Shown: in pieces, positions 16,456-48,481 of the stretch | Position numbering within the stretch: position 1 is the first letter of the stretch | Layout: every line of letters starts with the position of its first letter | The notes under the pieces: model-generated | What the model saw: the letters and a program-made list of their open reading frames with translations, nothing else | What the model was told of the DNA's origin: nothing | Databases searched by the model: none | DNA from: Camellia lanceoleosa | Taxonomy: Eukaryota > Streptophyta > Magnoliopsida > Ericales > Theaceae | Length of the DNA: 64,000 bases | Reading direction: 5' to 3' | Assembly (NCBI GenBank): GCA_025200525.1 | Contig: CM045762.1 | Location: forward strand, 31,266,196-31,330,195 | Made by a program: the position numbers and the translations under genes

Positions 16456-17246
16456 TGTTCGAAAAATAGTACCAAACTATCTGAAAAATATAATTTATAA
16501 ATATGTAAATGCATTTTGGGCAAAACCAAAAAAACTGAAATATATCAACATAATAACGTGATAAAACTTACAGTACATAACAGGATAAAATCTGATCGAG
16601 TCGAGTGTGTGACACTCTTTCCTTAAGACAGATTAGTCCTCCCACCGGTGCTTAGGATTTAATGGACGTCTATCTCCCAAGATACAACGATCAATGTCTT
16701 ACACTAGTAGCACTACTATTGCAAGCCTAGCGAACTTCGTTGTGCATGTACTCTCTTAATAGGAAAATTAGACTCATAAAATATGAAGAATAATGCAAAG
16801 TGAAGAAGAAAATAACAATTCACCACTCAAAATGAAATGAGGGAGAAAGAAATGTTTGGTTTGTGTTTGGGAGATGTGTTTTAGAGATAAAAAGTACGAA
16901 AATATGTTTGGTTTGGTTTTTTTCAAAAGATGTTTTGGAAAATGATTTTGAGAGAGAGTTTTGAAAAAAGTGATTGATTTGATATGTGTGAGAGAGAGAT
17001 TTGCTTGGAAAACATGTTTGGTTTAGAAGTTTTGGGAAATTTTTTTGGGAAACATGTTTGGTTTGAGTTTTTCTGAAAACTCATTTGTAGAGAAATTTTT
17101 CCAAAAATTTTTCAGAGATTCAAACCAAACGAACCCATAGACTTCTATGTGACTTTTCAGAAAGGTTGTGATCCTTTAAAAGGACACACCCTTTCATCTC
17201 AAGAGACATAACCATTGGAGTAAATTTAAATTCAAATTTTCCAACA
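16456..17246 (-). repeat. 3' LTR of Copia-D
   Basis: Matches 47973-48481 base for base over most of its length (GTTCGAAAAATAGTACC at the left, TTCAAATTTTCCAACA at the right). It carries a ~280-bp MITE (16853-17136) absent from the other copy. Confidence 0.88.
16853..17136. mobile_element. Tourist-like MITE in the Copia-D LTR
   Basis: Present in only one of the two Copia-D LTRs. The ends GTTTGGTTTG (16854-16863) and CAAACCAAAC (17121-17130) are inverted repeats, and AACATGTTTGGTTT is repeated inside. The TGTTTGGTTTG-type terminus resembles PIF/Harbinger (Tourist) MITEs. Exact edges and target duplication are unclear. Confidence 0.7.
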
Positions 17247-17935
17247 ATCCCCCACATGAATGAAATTTACGGAAAGGACATGCAACAACATGCAGACAAA
17301 GAGAGAGTACATTATGGAAATATCCTGCATCGGGATAGGTAGCTTTCGGCTTTGAACCTTCCCTAGTGAAAGCCTATCGGACTTACTAGCTAATCAGTGG
17401 ACGTGATGCCTTGAACTGTTTAGCCGTTTGTGTAAGCCAAGACAATAGAATTCACACAGAATATCTTCAAACACAACTTAGTTCTCACTTGTGCAGCTTT
17501 TGGCCTTGGGCAAGTCCTGGTGTTTCTTGAGTGCTTTAGAGAATTTGGCCTTATCAATTCTCATAGAAGCGGCCCCTTCACACTCATATAGGTGATCCTT
17601 ATTTCGAGTCTCTTAAATACTCCTCTTGAAAGATACCCCTCTAGAATTTCCAAGATATAAGTAATCATTAAAAGCATAGCTTACCCTAAGTTCCCTGCAT
17701 ACAACACATGTTGCAAATATCACTCTCATCATAGGAATGGATAGGAGTTAGACTCCTTTAGTGATTTCTGGCGAGCCACACATAACTTAGTTGTCCCTTT
17801 GAACTTAGTTCTTGGGATCTCCAGTCATCTAAGTAGGGTTACCATTTTGATGACTCTGATGTAATAGGCTTTAATCACATTCCCCTCGATAAACTTTTCC
17901 TCATTTGCTCTTTGGTCAAACTTTTTGTTTAGCGG
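17247..17935 (-). pseudogene. Copia-D polypurine tract, 3' UTR and last codons of pol
   Basis: On the minus strand, 17247-17262 reads CATTCATGTGGGGGAT, a copia polypurine tract next to the LTR. Upstream is a ~640-bp untranslated region with the phrase TGGAGATCCCAAGAAC, equivalent to GGAGATCCCATGAAGG after Copia-1 pol. Near 17880-17930 the sequence GAGGGGAATG corresponds to the GAGGGGATG at the end of copia RNase H. Everything further into pol is gone. Confidence 0.7.
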
Positions 17936-18061
17936 CCGCTATTGTTCCGTTTGACCTTGTGTTCTAACTCTCTGAAAATTAATCTAAGACTGAAATGAAG
18001 AATAATGCAAATGTTGTAAATCCTGGACAGCAAAAGCAAATGAAATAGTCTGTAATTTCGA

Positions 18062-18723
18062 ATGTCTATTTTTTTTTCCATGTTCAAAATTGCTGGAATA
18101 AACTATATATATAGGCAGACGGATTGGATAGTCCGAAACGGTACAATCATAGGTCAACAGGTGCCACATGTTTTTGAATTCAACTATTTTGAATTTATTC
18201 AAAAAGGACTTGACAACACATTATACAACGTCTACAGTCCAATCAAGACAGCAAAGGAATTTTGGGAATCGTTGGAGAAAAAGTACAAAACAGAAGATGC
18301 CGGCTCAAAGAAATTTGTGGTTGGCAGATTCCTGGATTTTGTAATGGTTGATTAAAAAACTGTGATCAGCCAAGCTCAAGATTTCCAACTCATTCTGTAT
18401 GACATTCACGCAGAAGGTATGTCTCTCAGTGAATCCTTCCAAGTTGCAGCCTTAATTGAAAAATTACCCAAAGGCTGGAAGGAATTCAAGAACTACCTTA
18501 AACACAAACGCAAAGAAATTTCTATGGATGAGTTAATTGTGCGTTTAAGGATTGAGGAGGACAACCGCAATTCTGAAAAGCGGGCTGGTAAGAATTCTAT
18601 GGAGTCTAAGGCAAATGTGGTGGAACATGCTTCAAAAACCAAGAAACGTAAGTCTTCTAGAGAAAGTTCATCACAAGGCTCTAAAGGGGGAGATAATAAA
18701 AAGTACAAGTTTAATGGTAAATG
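18062..18723 (+). pseudogene. Copia gag fragment, antisense within Copia-D
   Basis: Two adjoining open segments in one frame (18062-18355 and 18362-18723, split by a TAA) give a UBN2-type copia gag. Visible are [56 protein letters not shown] and a basic, serine-rich tail before the expected zinc knuckle, which is missing. The fragment lies on the plus strand, opposite to Copia-D transcription, so it came from a second copia copy or an inversion. It stops exactly where the long inverted repeat begins (18724). Confidence 0.78.
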
Positions 18724-19574
18724 TATGTTTCCATGTCTACATATGTTGTAGAGTTGACAATCAATTTATGATGTCATTAATATCAATTTGGTATGCGGTG
18801 TATTATAAATGGATGTCAATTATTTATCGAAGTATTGATAAAAATGTGAACTTATGTGTTTTGACATAAAGATTCTTTGGAATACAGACTAAAATTGGTG
18901 TGGTGACTGATAACTCTGTAATGAAATATTATAAGTTAAAATATTTCATGGGTGAAAGGCACTTTGGTAATTGTCGACGTAGTCACCAATACTGGTTAAG
19001 ACGAATAAGATGTAAATGTATTTATACAGTGATATTTATATTCGTTGTTGAGATTGGAATTAAGGGTTGCAGTAAACAAAAAGAAATTAATCATGGCTAA
19101 AGAAATGTTATTTGACAAAATGTTGTGGCCACAACCAGTTTTAGTCATTTCTTCGTTGCACTGCAAAAGCAAGTTATGAAATCTAATTGGTTTTAGACAA
19201 ATTAGTATTGTGATTATATTCACAAAACAGTTTACATCTTGTTATTTAGTTCAAGCACGCCAATTAATGATATATTCTGATTTATCTCGATTGTGGTGTA
19301 TTAATATTTTGTATAATTATACATCAACAAGAGGAATTAAGTTTCTTTAGAATGTTTAAAATGTGGGGGTGCTTGGAGGATTTTACCTAAGTAACGGTTC
19401 CGATAATAGGTCCACAAAGAATCTCAATTCTTTATATAGGACAAAGTTGGAGTAGAAACAACAATGGTTTCATCAACTCTTAAGGAACAACTCTATGTTT
19501 ATTGTTTAAATAGAAGTGACATAGAGTAACGATAAGTCTCGATGTAATCAAAGACTTAACACCGTTAGATATCA
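18724..19574 (+). repeat. Left arm of an ~850-bp inverted repeat
   Basis: Near-identical reverse complement of 31945-32756 plus 19632-19679. The outer end reads TATGTTTCCATGTCTACATA and the inner end GACTTAACACCGTT. A TATA-like CTTTATATAGG is at 19431-19441. The loop is ~58 bp (19575-19631). No protein is recognised in it. Confidence 0.88.
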
Positions 19575-26345: not shown

Positions 26346-27737
26346 TTCATGTATTTCGAACAAGAATGCTTCTACCTTCTTTGGGGTGGACACACTTTAA
26401 GTAGGGTCTGAAACGACTTCTTGTATAATGCTAAGGATGGAGAGAGCCAAAATCGTTGCGACTTGGCTCTTATTGCATTGGCTTCTTTCTTATCTTACGG
26501 TAGAGTCCGTCTTTCGAGAACGATATGATGGGATCCATCCAAGAAGGACCTAACTCCGCGCAACATACCTCTTGACCACGGGTCTTCAATACTTGGTGCA
26601 GGCGGATAGTCGACCAATAGTGGATGAGGATGGAGGTGTTCGCCATCGGCGAGGCACGCAAGTTAAATCTGCTCTACTATTCTCCTTCACCTTAATCTGT
26701 TCTATTCGACGACTTCAAACTTCTTGATCTCTGTCGACTAAGTCTTGGTACTTAGCCATTCTTTCATCCTTTGCTTCATAATCGCGAAATTTGATTCACC
26801 ACCAATTGCAGTCGTCAGTAAACCATTAATTGATGGCCTTCATGTATCTTTGACTTGAGCCTGCAAGAAAGCGCCGTACTCACCGTTGTTCGTATTTGGG
26901 AAGCCAAGGTTGATCGCTGCTCCACTACCAAGCCGTCGGAGAGATGAGGACTATGCCAAGTCTGCTTCATGTCGATTAGGCGCCATCCACAAAGAGTTTC
27001 CACATCTCCCCAACGAACAACTTCCAACGGTGGAGGGTCGGTCGATGCCTTGGGGTCTTCAGTTGCTAATGTCTTCTTGAGAATCCACATGATCGCCTTG
27101 TCTTCTGTTGGGCCCAAGTCATTAGTTGCTAGTGAATTTTGACTTGGTGTGGTAAGGTTGGCCTCTTCTTCGCCTTCTTTATCTGATGCCTTTGGTATTG
27201 CTGAGTAGCCTTTGTACTAGGGGTTGCGCTATTCGGCGTCAAACTCCATCCCTAGGTTGGTTGTATCGGTCGGTCAATTGGGCAAACTTGGTGGCTTCAG
27301 AGTGAACTTCTGCGGCGAAGTCGCCAAAGATTGGGCTTTCTTTGCGGTTACGGGTTGGAACTGCACGTCATATTGTCCCAATTCCTTCGCCCTTCAAAAC
27401 TTCGCCCGGAAAAGTTGGCCCTCTCAAGCAGAGCTTTTCGGTGGAAAAAGCAGGGCGACAATGGTGTGGGCGTGAAAGTAGTGCGCCAATTTCTGGATGC
27501 CATCATTAAGGCGGTGCTAACTTCTCGAGGCAAGTATCTTGCTTGGCTCCTAGCAATGTCTTCTTGACATAGAAGATAGGTAGGTGTTGGATTCTTCGCC
27601 GAACCAACCTTGCACTTCTGCGTCTTTGAGACCGCCAAATAGAGGAGGAGTTCTTCCCGGTATGGGGTAACAAGTAATGGTGGAGAAGACATGTACTCCT
27701 TCAGACTTTCAGAGCTTTGTCGCATTCTTCGTCCCAC
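26346..27737 (-). pseudogene. Tat-A RNase H domains, fragmented
   Basis: Minus strand. 27348-27737 carries [16 protein letters not shown] and the first RNase H (YLAVS, broken by indels). 26815-27117 retains pieces of the second, archaeal-type RNase H (DGLVVEQ) and its hinge. 26470-26661 holds the region before integrase (LGPSWMDPII, FSKDGLYRKI). All pieces align in order with Tat-B 39830-41200. No single frame spans the region. Confidence 0.72.
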
Positions 27738-28810
27738 TCAAACTTAGCTTTTAATGACTGGAAGAATGGACGCAATCTGTCTGAAGACCGACTGATGAAT
27801 CGGTTAAGTGCTGCCGCCATGCCGGTGAGATGCTGTACTTCTTTCACCGAGTTAGGTCTCTCTAACTCCTGAATTGCTTTGATCTGAGAAGGATCTGCCT
27901 CTATACCTCGATTGGTTACCAAGAAGCCTAAGAATTTGCCTGATCCTACTCCGAAAGCACACTTCGACGCGTTGAGGCGTAACTTATGCTTTTTCAGGAT
28001 CTCAAACATCTCACTTAGGTCCTTGAGATGGTCACTCTCACTCTTGCTCTTGACCACCATATCATCGATGTAAGCCTCCATTGTTTTGCCTAACAATGGT
28101 TCAAACATCTTGGTGACCATTCTCTGGAATGTCGCCCCTGCGTTCTTCAGGCCAAAGGGCATGACCTTATAATGATATAGTCCTCTTGGAGTGGTGAAGG
28201 ATGTGACCTCTGATGCAGCTCATGCATTGCGATCTGGTGGTAGCCTCTGTATGCGTCGAGGAAGCTTAACTGCTTTGTGACCGGTATTAGGTCGACCAAT
28301 TGATCTATCCTTGGCAAGGAAGCTATCCTTGGGGCATGCTTTGTTGCAGTTTATAGTCGACGCAGACGCGCCACTTCCCATTCTTTTTCGGCACCACAAC
28401 CGTGTTGGAAATCCACAGGGTAGTGCACCTCACTAATTGCTGCTGCCTCCAACAAGTTTCCCACTACCTCTACTACTATTTCGGCGTGGTGGAGTCGCGA
28501 TCTGCGAGTGCGTTGAATGACCGTGCAGCGGAAGGGTGGGCGTTGAGTTGGTGGCGAGATGAAGTTGGGGTCAATGCACGGCATGTCGTATGGAGTCGGC
28601 GAACACTTCTATGTTGGAAGTTAGAAATTCCAAGACCTCCACTCTCTGTCTTTGGACAACGACAGGCCAAGCAAGAAGAACTTATCCGGGTTCTTCTCGT
28701 CTATTCGACCTCCACCAAGTCCTCCATCGCTTTTTGATCGGCCGCTTTGCCAACATCCGAATAGTTCATTACTCTCCGGTTCTTCGACGAATGAACATAT
28801 CCTTTGGCGG
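27701..28810 (-). pseudogene. Tat-A reverse transcriptase
   Basis: 27701-28162 is a clean 153-codon stretch: [26 protein letters not shown] (catalytic YIDD kept) and [19 protein letters not shown], then [17 protein letters not shown]. 28163-28810 has the fingers/palm start in several frames (MPCIDPNF, HHAEIV, VGNLLEAAAI). It is nearly identical to Tat-B in the clean part. Confidence 0.85.
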
Positions 28811-30313
28811 TAGCTACTATTCGTTATGACGAAACCTTTGCTTGGACATTATCTGGTCCCCATAAACTTCTTCTATTACTCCAGTGTCGTTGGGGAACCT
28901 CATCACTTGGTGGTAAGAGGATGCCACCGGGCGCATGGCGTGCAGCCATGTTCTGCCTAAGGTAATGTTGTAGGTGGATGGGACCTTGGCACCGAACTCT
29001 ACTTGCCGTTACACTTCCATACGGTGGAAGGATGATTTTGCCGACCGCCACTCGGCATAGAGTTGAATCCAATCAAAGGGATACTGGTGGGGCCAAGTCT
29101 TTATCTTGACTTTAGTTGCTTGAAGGTTTCATAGTACATGATTTACGCGAGCTACCTTGGTCAATCGAGAATCCGCAGCGTCAAAATCCTTGACTCGGAG
29201 AGTGACGACCAAGGCATCGTTGTGTGGGCAATATATTCTGTCCAAGTCTTTATCTGAAAAGGACATGATGTTTGTGGCTTCTGTCCTCCCCCTTTTGACG
29301 ACTGGTTGGGCACTTAGCACCTCTTTCAAGTGCTCTGCCTTTTTGATTGAACCTCTGAGCTCGCATACTCGCTCACGGTTCAAAGACTCCATGGATTACG
29401 TTGATGGTGCCTTGTGGCGGGCGTCGTCGGCATTCCATTGGGGAGGTTGTGGTCTTGAAATTTGGCGCGCCTCCTTCTATGTATTTATCCGGGTGGCTGC
29501 GCCACCAATTCTTCCAGATGTTGCCTCGATGCGTGCGATTTTGATTCGGTGCCCTTTTCCTTGTGGAAGGTGCATCCGATCTCATCGTAATCCTACGGGC
29601 CTCGCCAACCTTGGCAGGCCACTTGACGAAAGGCTCGTCTCGAATCTCACTGAGTATACGGTAGATCGGCTTCTTGAACACCGTGGTTATGGCAGTTCGG
29701 ACTCTCAACCATCTCTTGTCCTGGTCTTCATCATTGTCGCGTCTGCCCTGCATTTTGGTTTGGCGACCTCTCGTATTGACCTTTCTTGGGTCTTCTTCTC
29801 GTGTAGCGTCGCGCTTTTTGCCTTAACACAGCGCCATCCTCTTCTACGATGTCTTGATGCACTCTCTCCATCGTGGCCTCCATTGTAAGTGGCGGAGTCA
29901 TGGTGATAGAGTCCTCACCGTTCTCGACCGAAGGCCTCTTTGTCTTCGCATGAATGGCTAGGTTGGTTGGGCGATCTCAACTGGTTGAATGTCTCCCAAG
30001 ATGCTTGTTGTAAGACCTCGGTCTCTTTGTCGCCCATATCGATGGAAACAATCGGTCGATCTCCACCGGAGTTTTTGTGTTTGTTCTCAACCGTTACAAA
30101 CGCCTCTTAATTGCGCCAGAGGCTATCTCGCTCGAAGCTTCTCAAACCAAAGTTAAGCCTAGGTCGCCGAGGCTTGAGGGAATAAGATACACATCAACGC
30201 CTCATTCCGCCGATATCTGACCATAACTTTGGCGAAAGTGGCTCAAGTGGGTGTAAGGATCATCTTTCCTTCATACGTCGTGAACTTGGGTTGTAAGAAG
30301 CGGAAGCGCGTTC
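28811..30313 (-). pseudogene. Tat-A gag core, nucleocapsid and protease, fragmented
   Basis: 29129-29392 reads ERVCELRGSIKKAEHLKEV and MSFSDKDLDRIYCPHNDAL, the linker before the protease. 28824-29072 covers the protease end in the wrong frame. 29373-29753 keeps FKKPIYRILSEIRDEPFVKW and part of the nucleocapsid (HREN-type Cys/His pattern is disrupted). 29880-30313 corresponds to the gag core of Tat-B (37141-37612) with many small indels. Confidence 0.75.
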
Positions 30314-31081
30314 TCAATCTTCGACGAATGGTGAGGTCTGCTTTCGCCAATGCCTTATCCGTGGTTCAGTATGCCAAGTGCGCGGCCTTGGCATTCCAAC
30401 CTCGACGCTTCCATGCGTCCGAGGAGCCAATCGCTGCAAGGCAGGAACCCTGTGGGGATCGCGCGTCCTGGCGTCCTCCTTCCATCGCGCCTTTTCTTCC
30501 AACACGGACCTTAGGTCGGACGACCTAGGTAATTCCGTCTGTCTGGACCTCGTATGATGCGTATGTGAGGGCCAATAAGTACTTCCCTCCGTGTATGACC
30601 TTTCAGGCTTCGTCCTCTCAGACCTGGAGTGACGAGTCCTGGAAGATACGGATCGCGTGTCGCCTGTCCTGAGGCTTCTGTCCTCTGGTTGCGAGGGTGT
30701 AGAATTCCTACCACGACCCTCGGAGTGGCGAGGGGGCGTCTTGTTGTTGCGCCCCACTCCTGTCGCCACTTCTTTTCCTTTCATCTGGCGCTTCAGAGAC
30801 TCCATGTCCGCCGCCATCTTGCGGATCAGTTCGTCTTGTTCTCTGACGCGATCTTCCAGAACTTGAGGATCAACTCTGCGCCTTTGTCTTTCTGGGCTTT
30901 GCGAACGAGAAGGATGAGGACTGCCATTCCTCCTTCGTCCCCTCGCATCCCTCCTGGAGTTCTGCCTTTGTGGTTCCAGACTCGCCATGGGAGGGATCAA
31001 AGGTAGGCCTTCGCGTCTTGCACCTCCCTCCGGAGTTAGTCCGTCAACGGCGGACTGCGGCAGTTCTTCGTTGTTTGCCAT
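30314..31081 (-). pseudogene. Tat-A gag N-terminus
   Basis: The start MANNEELPQSAVDG at 31081 lies just downstream of the 5' LTR and PBS. The frame continues 255 codons with an Arg/Ser/Pro-rich region (RGRRRNGSPHPSRSQSPERQ), a short coiled coil (LEDRVREQDELIRKMAADM) and a basic Arg-rich tail before it goes out of frame into the capsid core. The same start occurs at 36430 in Tat-B. Confidence 0.82.
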
Positions 31082-31130
31082 TGATATTCGAGAAAAGCTT
31101 GATCAAGAGGTTGTTTTTTGTCTGATATTT

Positions 31131-31148
31131 CCCACAGACGGCGCCAAT
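31131..31148 (-). promoter_or_regulatory. Primer-binding site of Tat-A
   Basis: Minus strand: ATTGGCGCCGTCTGTGGG, immediately after the 5' LTR end CCCGTACA. TGGCGCCGT is the start expected for priming by a tRNA ending ACGGCGCCA, the tRNA-Asp type often seen in Tat/Athila elements. Confidence 0.8.
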
Positions 31149-31944
31149 TGTACGGGAAAGAAATTCACCTTCTCGTATAATCCTGTTGACCAAGTCAGCG
31201 TTCCTCAATACGTCGTCGTTCCACCACCTGAAAACACAAACGTGAGCTGGCCGGCGGGGGTGTGCCGGAAACCTCTCCGATGCCCAAGTCAATAAACAAC
31301 ACAAGAAGGCTAAAGCTCTGTGTATTCAGGAAGCAAAATTCTGTTACCTTGGCAAAGGTGGCATTGGTGAGCTTATATAGGTTTCACGTGGCACAGTCCT
31401 AGTAGGACTCTAACTTCTCCATGCAAAGAGTCCTTCCAGAACTCACATTCCTCCATGCGTAGAGTCCTTCTAGGATTCATACTCTTCCTAGAAGATAATG
31501 CTCATCTTCAACACCCCCCTCACTGCATAAGCCAAGTGAGATGGCTTTTACTACGGCCGAACTCCTTTACAACCGAAGTAACACATAGTCCGGCCTTCAC
31601 CTTACTTCTCTTACCTCGGTTTCCAATGCCACAACTGAGCTATCCATAAGAGAGCTCAACCGGACTAGGACGCGGCCAGGCCGAACTAACAAGTCCAGAC
31701 CGGTGTCAACATGCAACCGGACTAGCATATAAGAACCGATATAATCCCACGACCGGTCTACCAACTGGAACCGGACTATCTCGATACTTGAAGCAACCGA
31801 GGTACGCGCCCTTTAAGAACCGGACTACCCCATACTTCACCTTTTCTCACTGAGAGTCTTCCATTCTTGTGCTGACCTCGGCCCAACACCTAGCTCGGCC
31901 CAACACCTAGCTCGGCCCAATAATGAATATAAATTACCCTCACA
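31149..31944 (-). repeat. 5' LTR of Tat-A
   Basis: Same ends as the left copy. Differs by scattered substitutions and an extra CACCTAGCTCGGCCCAA duplication near 31890-31915. Confidence 0.9.
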
Positions 31945-32756
31945 GTTACTCTATGTCACTTCTATTTAAACAATAAACATAGAGTTGTTCCTTAAGAGTT
32001 GATGAAACCATTGTTGTTTCTACTCCAACTTTGTCCTATATAAAGAATTGAGATTCTTTGTAGACCTATTATCGGAACCGTTACTTAGGTAAAATCCTCC
32101 AAGCACCCCCACATTTTAAGCATTCTAAAGAAACTTAATTCCTCTTGTTGATGTATAATTATACAAAATATTAATACACCCCCACAATTCTGAGATAAAT
32201 CAGAATATATCATTAATTGGCGTGCTTGAACTAAATAACAAGATGTAAACTGTTTTGTGAATATAATCACAATACTAATTTGTCTAAAACCAATTAGACT
32301 TCATAACTTGCTTTTGCAGTGCAACGAAGAAATGACTAAAACCGGTTGTGGCCACAACACTTTGTCAAATAACATTTCTTTAGCCATGATTAATTTCTTT
32401 TTGTTTACTGCAACCCTTAATTCCAATCTCAACAACGAATATAAATATCACTGTATAAATACATTTACATCTTATTCGTCTTAACCAGTATTGGTGACTA
32501 CGTCGACAATTACCAAAGTGTCTTTCACCCATGAAATATTTTAACTTATAATATTTCATTACAGAGTTATCAGTCACCACACCAATTTTAGTCTGTATTC
32601 CAAAGAATCTTTATGTCAAAACACATAAGTTCACATTTTTATCAATACTTCGATAAATAATTGACATCCATTTATAATACACCGCATACCAAATTGATAT
32701 TAATGACATCATAAATTGATTGTCAACTCTACAACATATGTAGACATGGAAACATA

Positions 32757-34377
32757 TGTAGACATGGAATCTCTCTTCCCCCACATTTGTGATAATATAT
32801 AAATTAGCACAAACAACATGATTCATCACAACTAATAATTCATTTTTGATGAATATTTGGGACAAAGAAAATTGAATTATCTTTTCTCATTCAAAAGATA
32901 AACACCCACATTAATATTATGGCTCATGGTTAAACAAATTTTATTATACAAGTAAAATAATGATTGATGATAATTTATGTCACAAACTCAAAGTTACTTC
33001 AAAAATAACTTTCAACTTGATTATTAACAAACTAATAATCAATATAAAAGATTCTTCAACCTACTTCCACTTAAATGGAATGATACCACTATTTCAATCA
33101 TCAAGTTTAAACTTTGCTGGTGTTAACGATTGTTAATACTACAATCACAATCAAACAAAAGGATTATTGACACATGAAATATACTTTTTGAAATAATACC
33201 CCACAAGAGATCCATTGGTATGTCATCATTACAATTACAAATTAATTAAAAATTTCACAAACTTTTAAATAGAATTTAATTTAAATCCCAGACAAAGCAC
33301 TGGAAATAAATCAGTCAAAAACTAACATATCACATTTTTCTTTTCCCATAAAAGATTTCATGGCAACATATGACACCATAAGGCTCATTGCAAATTAATT
33401 AGAATTACTACAAATTAAAATGTACATGTAAATGACATCAAATTACATTCAAAAAAAAATTTTTCCAAGTATATAACATATACTCTATATTTTCTCAATT
33501 TCAAGAGATCACCAACCAAAAGCAATATCTTGATTTTTATAATTAAAATCATAACTTGATTTTAATATATATGCTTGAAACTTCCACATAATCTTGTGGG
33601 CTAGTTATTAAAATAAACCATGAATATAAATTTGAAACCTTAGACCCAATGACTTAAATTCAATATATGGATTTAACCACTTCAAACCACCAAGCAGATA
33701 AAAACAATATATTGTTTTAGGTCTTTATATAATAAAATTGGACTCATTTCTTTTATATCCATAACAATTTTCCATACACAGGTCAATATAAACAAGTCCA
33801 ATTATAAGCCCATTACATAGAGTAATGATTAGCCCAAGTCCAAAAATAAATTTGTGAAAAGATGCCAACGATTCCATTATACACCATTTGATATACGTTG
33901 ATAGCATGCCAACAATACTATCTAAAACAGTTTATACATCTACAATGCATTCAGTTATATGGAACACACATAACCGCATGATCAACTTTTACAATATTGA
34001 TTAACAGAAACATATTGTAAATTTAAATTAATCAATGAACCTATGAGTAAAATAAAAACTCAAAGAAGATATGATTTGGCCCAAGCACCAATACAGAAAA
34101 ATCAAACTTGTCATGCATTATACACCGATAATTCGAAGGTTCTTCCTTAGCAAAGGATGCAGACAAAAACCGACATGACTAAACAATGCTCAAAACTAGA
34201 TCGTTTGCATGAGGTAACTCTAGTTTGTTAAATATACAGTAATTTGTGTGTAATTCACGGGCAGATCATCACACAAAATTTAAAGAGAAAAAGGTGTCTA
34301 ATTGTATAACGTCAAAAGCACTTTGAATAATGGAAAACAAAATTTCAAACAGGCCGTAAAATTTTCTTCCTTTCTTG

Positions 34378-34414
<37 letters not shown>

Positions 34415-34859
34415 AAACTAAATCTATTATCAATTCACCATAAACATGGTTTTAAATTTAAAAATCAAAACCCAATGGTCAAAACCGTATTTTAATACAC
34501 AGGACTCATTAGGAAAAAGATGTATCTATTCATAATTGCTACAAGAGAATAAATTACTATTTTAACATGGATTTGCAACTTACTCACAATTGCCTCTGGA
34601 ACAAATAAATATATATATTGATATATATTTTAACATAGTGGTCTAATTTACCACAATCAGTTTCTTCTATAGAAACTCACATTGAACAAGATGAAAGCCA
34701 ATAGAAATACTTTCCTTAACAAAGTATTCTTTGTTGGGGTCAAACCCTTTCCCGGAAGTGAAATCAACAAAACCAATATATTTGATATTTGAATGATAGG
34801 ATTACCCAAACTCAATTCATAACGGTTAAACAGTTTGGGTCGTAACCATTATTAAATGA
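32757..34859. other. AT-rich non-coding interior of Copia-D
   Basis: No protein or RNA gene recognised on either strand. On the minus strand, CAAATGTGGGGGAAGAGAG (32770-32788) is polypurine-like and lies just outside the inverted repeat. T17 followed by A23 sits at 34378-34417. It behaves like the spacer of a large non-autonomous element. Confidence 0.55.
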
Positions 34860-35229
34860 AACGTCACCTTTGTGCGGAATACCAACATGCCGATTCGTTT
34901 CTCCATTCTCAACGAAGGAACTGACAATTTCGGCACCACCACTTCGCCGACACAACTTCTAATTTCGTTCTTTGAAGAACGCATGACCCCAATATGAATC
35001 TGAGCCCTGCAATTTTTCCTCCGAATGGTGCCAAGTCACAGGAAGGGTGGCGGTAGAACATCTGCAGTGGCCGCCGCCGCTGCTCGCAAGCAGGGGAAAG
35101 TCGGCGATCTTGTTCTCGCCAAGGTCAAGGGCTTTCCGGCCTAGCCTACAACAGTAAGTGAGCCAGAAAAGTGGGGCTACACGGCTGATTGAAAGAAAGT
35201 AATTGTTTACTTTCTTGGAACCCAGCAAA
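34860..35229 (+). pseudogene. Captured 5' fragment of a HUA2-like PWWP-domain gene
   Basis: An ATG at 35025-35027 opens a frame with a basic start (MVPSHRKGGGRTS), an alanine run, then KVGDLVLAKVKGFPA, the start of a PWWP domain as in plant HUA2/HULK (ENHANCER OF AG-4) proteins. A TAG (TGG-to-TAG) hits the PWWP Trp at 35142-35144. The frame continues SEPEKWGYTAD, a TGA (TGG-to-TGA) near 35190, then KKVIVYFLGTQQ. Homology stops at about 35229. 34860-35024 looks like 5' UTR and is less certain. The intact family protein is ~1400 residues and acts in RNA processing and flowering control in the nucleus. Only ~70 codons are here. Confidence 0.85.
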
Positions 35230-35410
35230 TGTGCTCTTATACCCCTCGAACATACCCGAACACCATAGTGTTCCAAGAAACTCCATACCTCGTAGGAATT
35301 CTATTAAATAAGTACTGGACAGGTTGGTTATTCCAAACTTGCAATACATGTTGAACAATGTATTTAAATAAAAAGTGCTTAAAAGGGTGTGCATTTTTTC
35401 CATCTGAACC
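35230..35410 (-). pseudogene. Captured pentatricopeptide-repeat (PPR) gene fragment
   Basis: On the minus strand one frame reads STFYLNTLFNMYCKFG (about 35378-35331). After a frame change, another reads YLFNRIPTRYGVSWNTMVFG (about 35311-35252), ending in GYVRG. Those are two halves of a plant PPR motif of the PLS type (LFDRIP.R..VSWNTM..GYVR). PPR proteins edit or process organelle RNA. The fragment abuts the HUA2-like piece in opposite orientation and ends near an A/G-rich tract at 35440-35470. It is in the sense direction of Copia-D. Confidence 0.78.
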
Positions 35411-35555
35411 AACGTGACTGTTCAAACAAAAATACCAATTTTCTTTTTTTCTTTTTTTCTTTTTTTTGTTCTTCACAAAACAGTTTACATCAATAAAGAT
35501 CTAATATATTATGATACATAGAAAATAATATATAAATACAAAACCAAATCATATA

Positions 35556-36364
35556 TGAGAGGGTAATTTATATTTGTATTGGGCCGAGCTGGGTAAATTG
35601 GGCCGAACTAAATAATGGGCCGTTTTGGACCATACTACTGAGGGCCGAGTAGAAAGGCCATGTAGGTTACTCCGGTTTGGAGAAGTAACTTTGAAGATAG
35701 ACCGGTTACACAGCCATGATGGTTAGCCCGGTCTCGGAAGGACTAAGTTCTACTTCGGTTGAGTGGAGTAGCACGAAAGTTTCGGTCTTTGATAGTTACT
35801 TCGGTTATAGCATGTGAGAAACCGAAGTAAGCTGTGGTTCTAAAGATAGCTCGGCTTTAACTCCCTTATGGATAGCTCGGTCTTAGTATGGGAAAGCCGA
35901 GGTAAGGGAGAGTAAAGTGAGGGCCGAATTAATAGTTACTTCGGTCCTGAAGTAGTCCGGCCATAAGAAGAACCATCTCACTTGGTTTAAGCAGTGAGGG
36001 GGGTGTTGGAGGATAAGCATTGTCTTCCAGGAATATGAATCCGATGAGGACTCTATGCAAGGAGGAGTAATCCTAGAAGGACTCTGCACATGGGGGAATA
36101 AGAGTCCTACCAGGATTGTGCCACGCGAAACCTATATAAGCTCACTAATATCACCTTTGGAGAGGTACTGCAACTTTTGCTCCCTGAATACATAGAGCTT
36201 TTGCCTTCTTGTCTTGCTTGCTGACTTAGGCATTGGAGAGGTTTCCGGCACACACCCGCCGGCCAGCTCACGTTTGTGTTTACAGGTAGTAGAACGACGA
36301 CGTACAGAGGAACGCAGACTTGATCGACAGGATTATACGAGAAGGTGTATTTCTTTCCCGTACA
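35556..36364 (+). repeat. 5' LTR of Tat-B, followed by PBS
   Basis: Ends TGAGAGGGTAATTT and TTCTTTCCCGTACA. It carries many YCGGTT-type words (TACTTCGGTT at 35751 and 35798, TAGCTCGGTC at 35873). The PBS ATTGGCGCCGTCTGTGGGA follows at 36365-36383. Confidence 0.9.
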
Positions 36365-36429
36365 ATTGGCGCCGTCTGTGGGAATACAGACAAGAACAAC
36401 ATCTTGATCAAGCTTTCTCTCGAACATCA

Positions 36430-37612
36430 ATGGCGAACAATGAAGAGTTACCTCAGTCCGTCGTCGACGGACAAACTCCAGATGGGGGTGCAAGGCGAGA
36501 AGGCCTACCCTTGGTTGCTCCCATGGCAGATCTGGAGCCACAAAAACACAACTCCAGGAGGGATGCGAGGGGTCGAAGGCGAAATAATAGCCCTCATCCC
36601 TCTCGTTCGCAAAGCCCAGAAAGACAAAGGCGCAGAGTTGATCCTCAAATTTTGGAGGATCGCGTCAGAGAACAAGACGAATTGATCTGTAAGATGGCGG
36701 CAGACATGGAGTCTCTAAAACGCCAGATGAAAGGAAAAACAGTGGCGACAGGAGGGGGGGGGAACAACAAAATGCTCCCTCGCCACTCAGAGGGTCGTAG
36801 GAATTCTACACCCTCTCAACCAGAGAAGCCTAGGGCCAGGACAGCGACACGCTAATCCAGATCTTCCAGACTCGACTCTGTGCGAGAGAACGAGGTCTGA
36901 GAGGTCGTACAGTGAGGGAAGCACCTATTGGCCCTCACATACGCATCAGACGAGGTCTAGACAGACGGAATTACCCAGATCATCCGACCTACGATCCATG
37001 CTGGAAGAGAAGGCACGATGGAAGGAGGATACCAGAGCGCGATCCACGGGGTTCCCGCCTTGCCGTTGGCTTCTGGATGCATGGAAGCGTCAGGTTGAAT
37101 GCCAATGCCGCGCCCAAGATACGAACCAATGGACAAGGCATTGGCGAGGTCAGACCTCACCATTCGCCCTAGCAATAGAGAATGCACTTCTGTCACAAGC
37201 CAGACAACCTAAATTCACAACGTATAAGGGGAAGACGGACCCCTACTTGCACTTAAGCCACTTTCGCCAGGTCATGGCTGTATACCGGTGGAATGAGGCC
37301 TTGATGTGCATCCTATTTCCTTCAAGCCTTGGGGACCTTGGCTTGACTTGGTTTGAAAAACTACCAGAGGGCAAGATAGCCTCCTAGCGCTTGGCGCGAG
37401 GCGTTGTAACGCGATTCAAAACAAACACAAAAACCCCGGTGGAGATCGACCAGTTACTCTCCATCGACATGGGCGAGAAGGAGACCCTGAGGTCATACAA
37501 CAGTCGCTACTGGGAGACATTCAACCAGATTGGGGACTGCCCAACTAACCTCGCCATCGCGCAATACAAAAGAGGCCTTCGATCGAATGCATCGAGGACT
37601 CTATCACCATGA
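36430..37612 (+). pseudogene. Tat-B gag, broken
   Basis: ATG at 36430 (MANNEELPQSVVDG). The Arg/Ser/Pro-rich region and coiled coil (LEDRVREQDELICKMAADM) are as in Tat-A. The frame stops at 36853-36855. The capsid core resumes at about 37140 with LSQARQPKFTTYKGKTDPYL, HFRQVMAVYRWNEALMC and GLTWFEKLPEGKIAS, then a TAG (37385-37387) where Trp is expected, then 37391-37612 (MGEKETLRSYNSRYWETFN). This is the Retrotrans_gag (PF03732) core. A frameshift and one nonsense change inactivate it. Confidence 0.85.
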
Positions 37613-37665
37613 CGCCACCCCTCACCATGGAGGCCCTGATGGAGAGAGTGCATTAGCACATCAGG

Positions 37666-38715
37666 GTGGAAGAGGATGGCGCTCGGGCCAAAGCAAAAAC
37701 TGGCGCGACCACAACACCAGAGAAGAAGACCTCAGCAAAGGTCAATACGGTAGATCGCCAAAACCGAAACGGACGAGGCAGGCGAGACAATGGCGAGGAC
37801 CAGGACAAGAGATGGTTAAGAGTCCGCACCGCCATAACCACGGTATTCAAGAAGCCGATCTACCGTATACTTAGTGAGATTCGAGACGAGCCTTTCGTCA
37901 AGTGGCCAGCCAAGCTAGGCGAGGCCCAAAAGGACTATGATGATAGATCCAGATGCACCTTCCACAAAGAAAAGGGGCACCGCACTGAGAATTGCACGCC
38001 ATTGAGGCAGCATCTGGAAGAGTTGGTGGCAGCGGGCCACCTGGACAAATACATAAAAGGAGGGGCACAGCCAGCTCCTCAGGACCAGAATATGCCCAAT
38101 GGAATGCCAGTCGACGCCCCACCTCAAGGCGTTATTAACGTAATACATGGAGTCTTTGAACCTGAGCGTGTATGCGAGCTCAGAGGTTCAATTAAAAAGG
38201 CTGAGCACTTAAGAGAGGTGCTAAGTGCCCAACCGGTTGTTAAGAAAGGGAAGACAGAGGCCACAAATGTCATGTCTTTTTCGGATAGAGACTTGGCAAG
38301 GATTTATTGCCCCCACAACGATGCCCTGGTCGTCACTCTCCGAGTCAAGGATTTTGACGTCAAACGGATTCTGATTGACCAAGGTAGTTCATGTGAAATC
38401 ATGTACTATGAAACCTTCAAACAACTGAAGCTTCAAGACAAAGACTTAGCCCCTGCCGTATCCCCTTTGATTGGATTCAATTCTATGCCGGAGTGGCCAG
38501 TCGGCAAAATCATCCTTCCAGTCAAGGCAGGGAGCGTGACGAAGCAAGTGGAGTTCTGGGTGCTGAAAGTCCCCTCCACCTACAACCTTATCTTGGGCAG
38601 AACATGGCTGCATGCCATGCGCTCAGTAGCGTCCTCCTACCACCAAGTGATGAGGTTTCCTAACGACACCGGAGTAATAGAAGAAGTTTATGGGGATCAA
38701 ATCATGTCAAAGTAG
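37666..38715 (+). pseudogene. Tat-B nucleocapsid and aspartic protease
   Basis: 349 codons. Basic Arg/Gly-rich stretch, then CTFHKEKGHRTENC, a CX2HX4HX4C variant of the zinc knuckle, then the linker ERVCELRGSIKKAEH. The protease has VKRILIDQGSSCEIMYYE (active-site region near 38365-38400, DQGSS in place of the usual DXGSS/DTGSS) and ILGRTWLHAM. The frame ends in TAG (38713-38715) where the sequence continues CFVTANGSRAAKGY in frame, i.e. a probable CAG-to-TAG change. Upstream gag is in a different frame. Confidence 0.85.
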
Positions 38716-38766
38716 TGCTTTGTAACAGCGAACGGCAGCCGCGCTGCCAAAGGATATGTTCATTCG

Positions 38767-40956
38767 GTGGAAGAACCAGAGAGTAATGAAATATTCGCGG
38801 ATGTTGGCAAAGCAGCTAGTCAGAAAGCAGTGGAGGACTTGGTGGAAGTCAGGATAGATGAGAAGAACCCGGATAAGTTCTTCTTACTTGGCTCGTCGTT
38901 GTCCAGCACTAAGAGATTGGAAGTCTTGGAATTCCTGACCTCCAACATCGAAGTGTTCGCCTGGACCCCATACGACATGCCAGGCATCGATCCCAACTTC
39001 ATCTGCCACCAACTCAATGTCCACCCTTCCGCCAGACCGATCATTCATCGCACCCGCAGATCGGCACTCCACCACGCCGAAATAGTGGCGGAAGAAGTAG
39101 GAAACCTACTGGAAGCAGGGGCAATCAGAGAGGTGCACTACCCAAAATGGGTCTCCAACACCATCGTAGTGCCCAAGAAGAATGGCAAGTGGCGCGTCTG
39201 CATCGATTACAAGACGGTCAACAAAGCATGCCCGAAGGACAGTTTCCCCCTACCAAGGATAGATCAATTGGTGGACCTAACAGCTGGGCACAGCAGGCTT
39301 AGCTTCCTTGACGCATACAGAGGCTACCATCAGATAGCCATGCACGAACCGGATCAGGAAGTAACATCCTTCACCACTCCAAGAGGACTATACTGCTACA
39401 AGGTCATGCCATTTGGCCTAAAGAACGCAGGGGCGACATTCCAGAGAATGGTCACAAAGATGTTCGAGCCATTGTTAGGCAGAACAATGGAGGCTTACAT
39501 CGACGACATGGTGGTCAAAAGCAAGGATGCGGATGACCATCTAAAGGACCTAGACGAGATGTTCGGATCTGAAGAAACACAAGTCGCATACTTTAACGCT
39601 TCTAAGTGCGCATTCGGTGTAGGGTCTGGCAAGTTTCTAGGTTTCCTGGTGACCAACCGGGGTATTGAGGCAGACCCCTCCCAAATCAAAGCAATTCAGG
39701 AGTTAGAGAGGCCTAACTCAGTAAAAGAAGTACAGCATCTCACCGGCATGGCAGCAGCACTTAACCGATTCATCAGCCGGTCTTCAGACAGATTGCGTCC
39801 ATTCTTTCAATCATTAAAAGCTAAGTTTGAGTGGGACGAAGAATGCGACCGAGCTCTGGAGAGTTTGAAGGAATACATGTCTTCTCCACCATTACTTGTC
39901 ACCCCAATACCTGGAGAAGAACTCTTCCTCTACTTGGCAGTCTCTCAGCACGCGGTAAGTGCAGTGTTGGTTCGAGCAGAAGGAATCCAACATCTTCCTA
40001 TCTTCTATGTCAGCAAGACATTGTTAGGCGCCGAAACGAGGTATTTGCCACTGGAGAAACTGGCATTGGCCTTAATGATGGCCTCAAGGAAGTTGTCACA
40101 TTACTTTCACGCCCACACCATAGTTGTTCTCACAGCATTTCCACTCAAGGCTGTATTCGAAAGGGCGAACTTTTCTGGGCGAATTCTGAAGTGGGCAGTA
40201 GAATTGGGACAATATGACATCAAGTTCCAACCCAGATCCGCAATAAAGGCCCAATCTTTGGCAGACTTCATCACAGAGTTCACCCCTAGAAGCCATCAAG
40301 TCTGCTCAATCAACCTGACTGACACAACCGAACTAGGGATGGAGATTGACGCCGGAATAGCGCAACCCCTAGTGCAGGTTACTCAGCCAGGGCCCAAGGC
40401 AGACCAGAGTAGAGAAGGTCAAGAGGGAGCAGACCTTGCTACACCAAGTCAAAATTCACCAACAACTAATGACTTGGTCCCAGCAGAAGACAAGGGGCAG
40501 ACTGTAACCATGGATCATGAAGAAAACTCCAGCGACATTCCAGACCCCACAACATCATCCGATCCCTCCATATGCTGGAAGTTGTTTGTAGGGGAGATGT
40601 GGAAGCTCTTTGTGGATGGAGCATCCAACCGACATGGCGCAGGACTGGGCATAGTCCTCATCTCTCCAGACGGCCTGGTTGTAGAGCAAGCTATCAACCT
40701 CGGCTTCCCAGCATCAAACAACGAAGCAGAGTATGAGGCGCTTCTGGCAGGACTCAAGTCAGCAGCCTACATGAAGGCCACCGAACTAATGGTCTACAGC
40801 GATTCACAGTTGGTGGTAAATCAAATTTATGGCGATTACGAAGCAAATGATGAAATGATGGCTAAGTACCAAGACTTAGTCAGAAAAGAGATCAAGGAAT
40901 TTGAAGTAGTGAGAATAGATCGGCGGGAGGAGAAGAAACAGAAGCGAGCGAACTAA
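38767..40956 (+). CDS. Tat-B reverse transcriptase, RNase H and archaeal-type RNase H
   Basis: 729 open codons, the longest in the window; the first codon is set by the upstream stop, not a true start. Order by residue: connection (1-100), RT (about 100-330: [39 protein letters not shown] at 39496-39507, [17 protein letters not shown]), first RNase H (about 370-520: EELFLYLAVSQHAVSAVL, RYLPLEKLALALM), a low-complexity hinge with Asp/Ser/Gln, then a second RNase H (from 40600: WKLFVDGASNRHGAGLGIVL, NNEAEYEALLAGL, YSDSQLVVNQ). Two RNase H domains are a hallmark of Tat elements. The end (RREEKKQKRAN) is where the frame is lost before integrase. Catalytic residues of RT look intact. Confidence 0.9.
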   Translation: MEEPESNEIFADVGKAASQKAVEDLVEVRIDEKNPDKFFLLGSSLSSTKRLEVLEFLTSNIEVFAWTPYDMPGIDPNFICHQLNVHPSARPIIHRTRRSALHHAEIVAEEVGNLLEAGAIREVHYPKWVSNTIVVPKKNGKWRVCIDYKTVNKACPKDSFPLPRIDQLVDLTAGHSRLSFLDAYRGYHQIAMHEPDQEVTSFTTPRGLYCYKVMPFGLKNAGATFQRMVTKMFEPLLGRTMEAYIDDMVVKSKDADDHLKDLDEMFGSEETQVAYFNASKCAFGVGSGKFLGFLVTNRGIEADPSQIKAIQELERPNSVKEVQHLTGMAAALNRFISRSSDRLRPFFQSLKAKFEWDEECDRALESLKEYMSSPPLLVTPIPGEELFLYLAVSQHAVSAVLVRAEGIQHLPIFYVSKTLLGAETRYLPLEKLALALMMASRKLSHYFHAHTIVVLTAFPLKAVFERANFSGRILKWAVELGQYDIKFQPRSAIKAQSLADFITEFTPRSHQVCSINLTDTTELGMEIDAGIAQPLVQVTQPGPKADQSREGQEGADLATPSQNSPTTNDLVPAEDKGQTVTMDHEENSSDIPDPTTSSDPSICWKLFVGEMWKLFVDGASNRHGAGLGIVLISPDGLVVEQAINLGFPASNNEAEYEALLAGLKSAAYMKATELMVYSDSQLVVNQIYGDYEANDEMMAKYQDLVRKEIKEFEVVRIDRREEKKQKRAN

Positions 40957-41182
40957 AGCTTACTTAATGGCGGATACCTCCATCCCTCATCCACTATTGA
41001 TTGACTACCTGCCTAGACCAAGTATTGAAGACCCATAAGCTGAAGAAGTATGTTGTGCGGAGTTAGGCCCTTCTTGGATGGATCCCATCATATTGTTCCT
41101 GAAAGACGGCACTTTACCAGAAGAAAAGAAGGAAGCCAACAGAATAAGAGCAAAGTCGCAACGATTTTAGCTCTCTCCATCC

Positions 41183-42313
41183 TTGGCATTATACAAGAAG
41201 TCGTTTTCAGGACCTTACTTAAAATGTGTTCACCCCAGCAAGGTAGAAGCGTTCCTGTTCGAAATACATGAAGGGGTATGCGGCAGCCATCGAGGAGGAA
41301 GATCACTGGCATACCGAGCTATTTCACAAGGATACTGGTGGCCCTACATGCAGGCGGATTCAGAGAAATATGTCAAAAAATGCGAAAAGTGTCAGTAGTT
41401 TGCGCACCAAATACACCAACCTGCCAGAGAACTACTACCATTAACTAGCCCATGGCCTTTCGCAATGTGGGGCTTAGACATAGTAGGTCCACTTCCAACA
41501 GCACCAGGCAACAGAAAGTTCTTTCTTGCGGCAACAGACTACTTCACCAAGTGGATGGAAGCAGAAGCCTTGGCGTCAATCAAGGAAAAAGATGTGAAGA
41601 AGTTTGTTTGGCAGAACATCATTACTCGCTTCGGCATACCAAAAGCACTGATCTCAGACAACGGCACTCAGTTCGACGGTAAAATTTTTAGAGGCTTTTG
41701 CGAAGAGTACAAGATAGAATTCTACAATTCTACACCGGCGTATCCCCAAGCAAACGGTCAGGCAGAGGCGTCAAACAAGGTAGTCTTGGACGGATTGAAA
41801 AAAAGGCTGGAGAAAGCCAAAGGCAAGTGGGCAGAAGAGCTCCCTCATGTTTTATGGGCTTATCGCACCACACCACGGCGGTCAACAGGAGAAACTCCAT
41901 TCTCCTTAGCTTATGGCATGGAAGCAGTCATCCCTTTAGAAGTTGGCCTTCCTACAATTCGGAGCGAAAACTTTGATCTAGACCTAAATGGGGAAGCCAT
42001 CGCATTAGAACTTGACTTGGCAGAAAAAAGAAGAGAAAAGGCATTGGTTCACATCGCCTCCTACCAGCAAGAATTGTCCAGGAAATACAACAAAACAGTA
42101 CATCCAAGACAGTTCAAGATCGGCGATTGGGTACTTCGCAAGGTGATGGGAAACACATTGGTCCCAGGAGACGGCAAGTTAGGTCCTAACTGGGAAGGTC
42201 CTTACAAAGTGGTCGGATTAGCAGGAAAATGGGCATACCACTTGGAAGATGAGGACGGCAAAGCAATTCCTAGGCCATGGAACATTGCCAATCTTAAGTT
42301 ATTTTACTTTTAG
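41183..42313 (+). pseudogene. Tat-B integrase
   Basis: 41183-41398 has the zinc domain (CVHPSKVEAFLFEIHEG, SHRGGRSLAYRA, CEKCQ) and ends in TAG. 41465-42313 (282 codons) carries the full core: MWGLDIVGPLP (Asp), ISDNGTQFDGK (Asp), YPQANGQAEASNK (Glu), [16 protein letters not shown], then the C-terminal GDWVLRK and GPNWEGPYKVVGLAGK, ending NLKLFYF. One nonsense codon separates an otherwise intact enzyme. 40957-41182 links it to RNase H with several frame changes. Confidence 0.88.
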
Positions 42314-42549
42314 CTTTTTCTTCTCTCTTTAAGTATATGTAATTTTTCACTTCATCAATAAAATAAATCGATTCTTTTTAGCATATTTGTTTTTAGTAGA
42401 AAGTAACTTTTGTAAAGTTAGTAGCATTGTAAACATAGTTGGCCGGATTAAACCAACTATGACCCCTCCTAAGCCCAGGATAAGGATCCAAGCTGCAAGA
42501 CGTTTCGTCGGAATAACCAAACACTATATTCTAGGTTGGCTGGAAAAAC
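42314..42549. other. Spacer after Tat-B integrase
   Basis: Non-coding. Matches the spacer beside integrase in Tat-A (25131-25329) in reverse orientation, including ATAGTTGGCCGG. Confidence 0.6.
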
Positions 42550-43330
42550 CAACCTAGAGGTTGGCTGGATTAAACCAACTCTTTATACTCTTCAACCGAA
42601 GTAAGTGTATGGCTGAAGAGTGGTTGGCTGGATTAAACCAACACTTTGTACTCTTCAGCCGAAGTAAGTGTACGACTGAAGAGTGGTTGGCTGGATTAAA
42701 CCAACTCTTTGTACTCTTCAGCCGAAGTAAGTGTATGGCTGAAGAGTGGTTGGCTGGATTAAACCAACACTTTGTACTCTTCAGCCGAAGTAAGTGTACG
42801 GCTGAAGAGTGGTTGGCTGGATTAAACCAACACTTTGTACTCTTCAGCCGAAGTAAGTGTACGGCTGAAGAGTGGTTGGCTGGATTAAACCAACTCTTTG
42901 TACTCTTCAGCCGAAGTAAGTGTATGGCTGAAGAGTGGTTGGCTGGATTAAACCAACTCTTTGTACTCTTCAGTCGAAGTAAATATATGGCTGAAGAGTG
43001 GTTGGCTGGATTAAACCAACACTTTGTACTCTTCAGCCGAAGTAAGTGTATGGCTAAAGAGTGGTTGGCTGGATTAAACAAACACTTTGTACTCTTTAGC
43101 CGAAGTAAGTATATGGCTGAAGAGTGGTTGGCTGGATAACACCAAACACTTTATACTCTTCAGCCGAAGTAAGTGTATGGCTGAAAAGTGGTTGGCTGGA
43201 TTAAACCAACACTTTGTACTCTTCAGCCGAAGTGAGTTATATCGGCTAAAGAGTGGTTGGCTGGATAAAACAAACACTTTGTACTCTTCAGCCGAAGTAA
43301 GTTATATCGGCTGAAGAGTGGTTGGCTAGT
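42550..43330 (+). repeat. 63-bp tandem repeats of Tat-B
   Basis: About twelve units of 63 bp. Each has GGTTGGCTGGATTAAACCAA followed by CTTTGTACTCTTCAGCCGAA and GTAAGTGTACGGCTGAAGAG. Each unit holds two inverted repeats (GTTGG...CCAAC and CTCTTCAGCCG...CGGCTGAAGAG), so RNA from either strand could fold into serial hairpins. 63 is divisible by three, so both strands stay open by chance. Located between the convergent integrase and antisense gene. Confidence 0.95.
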
Positions 43331-47520: not shown

Positions 47521-47972
47521 ATATACTATTCATGAAATCTAACAAACAGGTTCTCAATTTTGCTTTTCCTCCTTCAACCCAATAACTGCAATAACATTCC
47601 TCGATCCGAAACTTACTCCAGACTTAGATTCATCAACAACCAGTGAGTATTCTATTTAATCACTCTACTTTTTGATGCTTTCATTTCCAATTTTCTCACT
47701 TCAATTTCAGTTAGTTATTATCATCAATGTTGGAGTGTGTTTTTGAACAAATCATCAAGAGGAAAAAGAACAATCTTTTATGTGATTAAGGTTTAAAAGT
47801 ATGATTAATCCCAATATGTATATTCTAAACCAAGAAAGTATAATCATAATCAGCCCACCCAAATTGGTAAGTGTCCAATATTCTCCAACAATATTGCAGT
47901 GCCACCGTAGTACATAGTAAATCAATTATATTTTCCCAAAAACCATAAATAGAACCGATTCTGTCTTAAGAT
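47521..47972 (-). other. 5' leader region of Copia-D
   Basis: Lies between the Tat-B insertion site and the 5' LTR of Copia-D. The minus-strand bases after the LTR are ATCTTAAGACAGAATCGG; I do not recognise the primer tRNA. 47728-47890 starts TGTTGGAG and ends CTCCAACA and could be a tiny LTR-like relic, but it has no matching flanks. Confidence 0.5.
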
Positions 47973-48481
47973 TGTTCGAAAAATAGTACCAAACTATCTA
48001 AAAAATATAATTTATAAATATGTAAATGCATTTTGGGCAAAACCAAAAAAACTAAAATATATCAACATAATAACGTGATAAAACTTACAGTACATAACAG
48101 GATAAAATCTAATCGAGTCGAGTGTGTGACACTCTTTCCTTAAGACAGATTCGTCCTCCCACCGGTGCTTAGGATTTAATGGACATCTATCTCCCAGGAT
48201 ACAACGATCAATGTCTTACACTAGTAGCACTACTATTACAAGCCTAGCGAACTTCGTTGTGCATGTACTCTCTTAATAGGAAAATTAGACTCATAAAATA
48301 TGAAGAATAATGCAAAGTGAAAAAGAAAATAACAATTCACCACTCAAAATGAAATGAGGGAGAAAGAATATATAGACTTCTATGTGACTTTTCAGAAAGG
48401 TTGTGATCCTTTAAAAGGACACACCCTTTCATCTCAAGAGACATAACCATTGGAGTAAATTTAAATTCAAATTTTCCAACA
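47973..48481 (-). repeat. 5' LTR of Copia-D
   Basis: 509 bp. Plus-strand ends TGTTCGAAAAATAG and TTTTCCAACA. Followed by AGTTG (48482-48486), the copy of 16451-16455. Lacks the MITE found in the other LTR. Confidence 0.88.

Follow-up and report, generated by a model that had tools for sequence, protein, structure and literature searches.

By what route did pieces of two unrelated host genes come to lie head-on inside a single plant retrotransposon? The question is posed by a stretch of 64,000 nucleotides from Camellia lanceoleosa (the window), in which a first-pass annotation had described the N-terminus of a HUA2-like PWWP protein on the plus strand abutting a PPR motif on the minus strand, and had attributed both to capture by a Copia element. 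The analysis reported here makes it probable that the element in the window belongs to a family of non-autonomous LTR retrotransposons, which took up host messengers in a stepwise manner and then multiplied in the genome.

The limits of the LTRs in the window were set by self-comparison and by reading of the sequence (Table 1). Both gene fragments do lie between two AGTTG-flanked LTRs, as annotated, and the LTRs differ by a K2P distance of 0.022. Two nested Gypsy elements break up the region between them. The purine-rich tract GTGGGGGAT beside the LTR at 17247 places the sense of the element on the minus strand, so that the PPR piece is in sense and the HUA2-like piece in antisense to the element. 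Tandem arrays with a period of about 63 bp occur inside both Gypsy elements (24073-25097 and 42556-43327). The sequence inserted in the 3' LTR has a 76% relative near the HUA2-like gene (L027:3843-4121) and is probably a small dispersed transposon. Region C, read by eye on the plus strand, resembles a 5'UTR exon, with CCA/GTGAGT and a later TTTCAG, and may perhaps be a further, unspliced host piece.

Table 1. Features of the LTR element in the window (positions are those of the window; strand as read in the window)
Feature	Positions	Strand	Remarks
5' LTR	47973..48481	- (element sense = minus)	TG..CA ends; 97.8% against the 3' LTR (510 columns)
Target duplication AGTTG outside 5' LTR	48482-48486
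Region C, internal, adjoins 5' LTR	47526..47972	-	also adjoins the LTR in L009, L010, L014 and L021, among others
Nested Gypsy-2	35556-47520		target duplication ATATA at 35551-35555
Internal region linking region C and PPR piece	35389..35550	-
PPR gene piece, sense to element	35238..35388	-	matches C10 PPR gene (G10 1057-1209), 85.6%
Junction filler between PPR and HUA2 pieces, origin unsure	35231..35237	.	first 3 nt identical to those that open HUA2 intron 2
HUA2-like exon 2, antisense to element	35154..35230	+	end = exon 2/intron 2 border of parent
HUA2-like 5'UTR and exon 1, ATG at 35025	34906..35153	+	fused directly to exon 2; 389-bp GT-AG intron of parent absent
Region B, internal	31950..34905	-	common to other copies; parts also in the PP2C-carrying element on C14
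Nested Gypsy-1	19680-31944		target duplication GTTAC
Insert: Copia gag piece and inverted copy of part of region B	17959..19563	.	absent from 5 other copies compared
3' region A, with purine-rich tract GTGGGGGAT adjoining 3' LTR	17247..17958	-
3' LTR, interrupted at 16852-17136 by an insertion of about 285 bp	16456..17246	-	AGTTG duplication at 16451-16455

On the plus strand, positions 35025-35233 correspond to the first 69 residues of a HUA2-like protein, which read MVPSHRKGGGRT...GKVGDLVLAKVKGFPA, PTTVSEPEKWGYTAD and KKVIVYFLGTQQM, with an in-frame stop after GKVGDLVLAKVKGFPA and another after PTTVSEPEKWGYTAD. With X at the stops, the translation matches the PWWP domain in Pfam (E 4.5e-6), its 27.5 bits exceeding the cutoff of 25.6. 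The read-through sequence of 69 aa gave 258 protein matches at E<=1e-3, the best of them to a Camellia sinensis protein (E 2.7e-30, 86%), and many among the 120 listed of these 258 are named HUA2-LIKE, in agreement with the annotation. The parent is a HUA2-like gene on C11 of the same genome (L027), in which exons 1 and 2 are split by a 389-bp GT-AG intron and, when spliced, give the N-terminus of P0001; exon 3 follows after a 5.4-kb intron. C13 bears another HUA2-like gene, which is interrupted by an intron at the corresponding position but shows lower similarity (74% and 89%). The element fuses exons 1 and 2 exactly where the parent intron sits, and the intron is missing in all 18 loci that hold both exon blocks, among 22 chimera loci (L009-L026, L028, L038, L048 and the window). 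The HUA2-like piece therefore derives from spliced RNA. It starts in the 5'UTR and leaves the parent at the end of exon 2, beyond which the next 14 nt fit neither intron 2 past GTG nor exon 3 clearly. The captured 5' end may or may not be a transcription start; inspection by eye found no TATA-like word about 30 bp upstream.

The PPR piece (35388-35238 on the minus strand) has a broken frame. As protein it falls below the Pfam cutoff (19.7 bits for the joined pieces against 25), and the two single-frame versions gave no Pfam match, but its DNA can be aligned for 153 bp, with 86% identity, to a PPR gene that this genome has on C10. The first 244 aa of the C10 gene are 98% identical to a C. fascicularis PPR protein (94% of the query). 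In this assembly the frame of the C10 gene (L033) is broken relative to C. fascicularis P0121, which may reflect a pseudogene or an assembly error. The two host pieces adjoin, as had been noticed, and meet at about 35231-35237, slightly beyond the annotated position of about 35229. In eight of nine loci examined (the exception being L036), the element also carries the PPR 5' leader in antisense. This leader corresponds to an exon that precedes the coding exon of the C10 gene by 2.8 kb, and a 2,797-bp intron, GC-AG by sequence, is missing from it, so that the leader, too, derives from spliced RNA. The join between antisense leader and sense PPR piece falls inside TAAAGGGT, an 8-nt word present at both places in the gene. 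The occurrence of TATATATAAG 33-42 bp upstream of the captured leader end is a hint, suggestive only, of a transcription start.

The chimera belongs to the internal sequence of the element and has been copied to many sites with target duplications of the LTR type. In the same 3.0-Gb genome, the 551-bp chimera gave 43 matches, a lower bound that takes in the parent genes and partial relatives, and 15 of the 43 (window included) span at least 450 bases. Stretches of 10 kb were fetched at 20 of the matches, of which 19 contained the whole or a partial chimera and one (L027) was the parent gene. Other copies of the same LTR element were thus found to carry the chimera, with the same flanks and LTRs around it. 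The order LTR, C, B, A, LTR seen in the window recurs, minus the nested Gypsy elements, in L010, L013, L014, L020 and L021, for example, and several other copies are partial or rearranged according to the mapping of the fetched stretches. Direct LTRs with TG..CA ends are present, and 11 loci including the window have measurable LTR pairs. Exact 5-bp target duplications, differing from locus to locus, flank eight of them (7/10 when the window is left aside); in the remaining three, one duplication agrees at 4 of 5 bases and two loci have a truncated outer LTR end. The K2P distances of the pairs range from 0.002 to 0.127, with the maximum in the truncated copy L021. From outer LTR end to outer LTR end, the eight other copies with both ends present measure 4.2-6.3 kb. 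Ahead of the 3' LTR, the 11 loci have a polypurine tract (GTGGGGGA, GTAGGGGA or GTGGGAGA), and downstream of the 5' LTR most of them have ATCTTAAGACAGA or close variants, a candidate tRNA primer binding site that by eye is not of the usual initiator-Met type.

The borders of the captured sequence are shared by most of the chimera loci. The PPR/HUA2 border lies at the identical base in 19 of the 22 chimera loci, with a shift of 1 base in L023 and of 8 bases in L021, and L025 lacking the border. The 5' limit of the HUA2-like piece is at the identical base in 17/22, being shifted by 7 bases in L048 and 25 in L021, and ending earlier in L024, L026 and L028. L038 and L048 share the same internal deletion and lie 75 kb apart (C7:99.39 and 99.46 Mb), likely as a segmental duplication.

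The best reading of the element is as a non-autonomous, Bs1-like LTR retrotransposon family. No gag-pol was visible in the open frames of five elements; none of these frames is pol-sized, the longest having 137 aa. An autonomous partner was looked for in a 3-kb stretch (L054) beside a region A candidate and not found there, with no gag-pol-like frame among the longest frames. The Copia label is a provisional one, taken from the appearance of the LTRs. Region A (17248-17958) gave 5,899 first-look candidates genome-wide, of which 40 were scored; members lacking the chimera appear to outnumber its carriers by far, and the carriers seem to represent a minor branch within an extremely numerous group of elements. 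No description of this camellia family was found in the largely open-access literature searched.

The order in which the pieces were acquired can be approached through members that carry one of them. PPR sequence without HUA2 is found at six loci (L030, L031, L032, L034, L035 and L036; 2.4 kb read at each). An LTR lies within the 2.4-kb stretch in L030, L031 and L035, and region B in L032; L034 has an LTR match of 24 nt only, and in L036 both LTR and region B are missing apart from a 37-nt match. The PPR pieces of these loci are longer (up to 251 bp) and 91.6-94.1% identical to the gene, compared with 81.7-91.4% in the chimera copies, where L022 ranks highest. Three HUA2-bearing loci, L022, L038 and L048, still hold the antisense PPR leader, which links the PPR-only and HUA2 stages. 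In a tree of the chimera, L022 and L038/L048 group with the parents (support 0.95; 0.60 for L022 with the parents), and L038/L048 are on a long branch. The longer PPR pieces in relatives with no HUA2, together with the antisense spliced leader in older members, indicate that PPR was probably captured first and HUA2 later. It is possible that in some PPR-only loci HUA2 was lost rather than never gained, since the PPR identity of L022 (91.4%) is close to theirs. A stepwise build-up of the captured pieces is nonetheless strongly suggested; the annotated capture of host pieces by an LTR element is supported, and the two pieces were probably taken up separately.

A third host gene is represented in a sister element on C14, which has its own LTRs, 96.2% identical to each other and about 90% to that of the window. 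It carries parts of the 5'UTR and exon 1 of a PP2C gene (PP2C-25-like by protein matches), in sense and with internal deletions. Comparison with the PP2C gene on C4 shows exon 1 ending exactly where the element leaves PP2C, in 4/4 loci compared. In L045 and L047 this element sequence occurs with no PP2C exon 1, and CCAG stands at the join, so a 3-nt shared word can explain this exact end. Capture of a PP2C intron, considered for window 34770-34919 and 33587-31950 against loci on C6 and C14, was rejected because the locus on C14 proved to be such an element in its own right, bearing a related LTR, so that the matching sequence is the element's own; when checked against the C4 gene, the PP2C 5'UTR and exon 1 are its only host-derived parts. 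L047 has long open frames at 85-700, ending in a clear 3' splice site (TTTTTGGCAG), and no PP2C exon 1; this may perhaps be another captured gene, and the peptide after the splice site gave no Pfam match.

We infer that the joins were made by template switching of reverse transcriptase. The enzyme would switch between element RNA and host RNA, or host first-strand cDNA, at short shared words, with the protein machinery assumed to be supplied by an autonomous relative. For the pieces taken in antisense, HUA2 and the PPR leader, a host first-strand cDNA would serve as acceptor, with minus-strand synthesis jumping to its 3' end; alternatively, plus-strand synthesis would jump onto the host mRNA. 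The shortness of the junction words counts against this reading: the shared word has 8 nt at PPR and 3 nt at PP2C, and HUA2 shows a loose match at its 5' end. The 1.6-kb insert between regions A and B of the window copy looks like a recent strand-switch event, and resembles the older captures in being antisense and inverted. Its Copia gag piece (17959-18723; PF14223, E 2.2e-20) is on the plus strand, antisense to the element, and its inverted copy of part of region B shows 98.5% identity in self-comparison; in the five other copies compared, which lack the gag piece, position 17958 is followed by 4-8 bases and then by the sequence of 19564-19566. Counting against plain random template switching, which does not predict it, two captures end at, or no more than 3 nt from, an exon end (HUA2 exon 2 and PP2C exon 1).

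Some of these features could equally arise if retrocopies of the HUA2-like and PPR messages had been made elsewhere, end-joined into the element by DNA repair and then spread with it. The pieces would be spliced, junction filler and short homologies also suit end joining, and either orientation, antisense included, would be possible. Such an origin is unlikely, however, as both pieces lack their 3' ends, no poly(A) was found at the junctions inspected, the 8-nt word at the antisense/sense join of PPR suits strand switching well, and an inverted join has also arisen recently, in the window copy.

The captures that stop at exon ends bring to mind gene trapping, in which the element would lie in a host intron, the upstream exon would be spliced into the element, and the hybrid RNA would be reverse transcribed. 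The exact PP2C end, the HUA2 end within 3 nt of a border and the start of both pieces in a 5'UTR are what it would produce. The first of these points is weakened by L045 and L047, and the antisense orientation of the HUA2-like piece, together with a sense PPR piece that ends away from any exon border of the gene's open frame, makes gene trapping an unlikely source of the chimera.

That the chimera spread through usefulness, by way of a chimeric protein or of antisense or small RNAs against the donors, is very unlikely. The PWWP-frame stop (FPA-stop-P or variants) is present in 19/19 copies covering the site, which suggests that the captured PWWP fragment was already non-coding before the family spread, and with a longest frame of 137 aa in five elements a protein role is unlikely. 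The RNA version is favoured by perfect 21-mers to the HUA2-like message, numbering 20 in the window copy and 38 in L022, all antisense and none sense. Against it, five of the 22 copies (L013, L016, L018, L019 and L028) share no 21-mer with that message, and relatives free of the chimera appear to be far more abundant. Capture of both gene pieces as DNA by a Helitron or Pack-MULE nested in the LTR element is scarcely credible: such elements account for more captures than LTR elements in maize (PMC2774510), but here the missing introns contradict it, the same flanks and LTRs surround the chimera in other copies, and the 25 longest of 32 pairs of inverted repeats in 32757-35560 include no pair that brackets the chimera, so that among these repeats the separate boundary considered in the annotation is not seen.

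Stepwise uptake of spliced messengers by an LTR family, the preferred reading, allows one further and more tentative proposal. The same family may repeatedly pick up antisense or inverted RNAs through a strand-switching reverse transcriptase, the series running from the PPR leader to HUA2 and then to the inverted duplication and antisense gag of the window copy, with PP2C taken in sense by the sister element. LTR-driven antisense HUA2-like RNA would then be a renewable source of trans-silencing, an idea that we regard as possible but doubtful. The 21-mers show only that trans-acting RNAs could match the HUA2-like donor. In a moth, silencing RNAs derived from retrocopies are reported to target the parent gene (PMC9674220).

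The capture of host genes by plant LTR elements is already known, and the presence of fragments of several genes in one element is rare. In the present family, members at different stages survive in one genome, so that the likely order of capture, the spliced origin of the pieces and their precise junctions can be read. Such loci render the mechanism (template switching, repair or gene trapping) testable, and form a defined set on which any silencing of the donors by the captured antisense pieces can be examined. The family shows how mobile elements can shuffle genes, as processed host messages are copied stepwise and multiplied to many places.

Among known non-autonomous elements, LARD and TRIM elements have two LTRs, lack gag-pol and are mobilised in trans. 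The camellia element likewise has two LTRs and shows no gag-pol; at 4.2-6.3 kb, it carries host cDNA. The closest likeness is to maize Bs1, an LTR element that combines segments taken from several unrelated host genes; three distinct host gene transductions are described for it, and it is said to yield a chimeric gene that is transcribed and translated (PMC13317346). The camellia family shares with it the presence of at least two unrelated host genes in one LTR element, as pieces from spliced RNA. It differs in the antisense orientation of the HUA2 piece and PPR leader, in the shared PWWP-frame stop in place of a chimeric expressed open frame, in showing no gag-pol, in the presence of the chimera at about 20 loci, and in the existence of members with one piece. 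In maize B73, 425 LTR elements with host gene fragments, representing at least 189 captures, are recorded, and under the conditions of that survey no element is reported to combine fragments from two or more standard nuclear genes (PMC2774510); by contrast, in the camellia family two genes are represented within a single element, and a sister element has a third. A term search of the accessible text of a rice and sorghum survey (PMC3726574) gave nothing on introns, antisense or templates. For LTR chimeras in Triticeae, abnormal template switching that fuses two RNAs has been proposed (PMC1950507; PMC13317346). Those chimeras join two retrotransposons, whereas the camellia element includes host messages, partly inverted.
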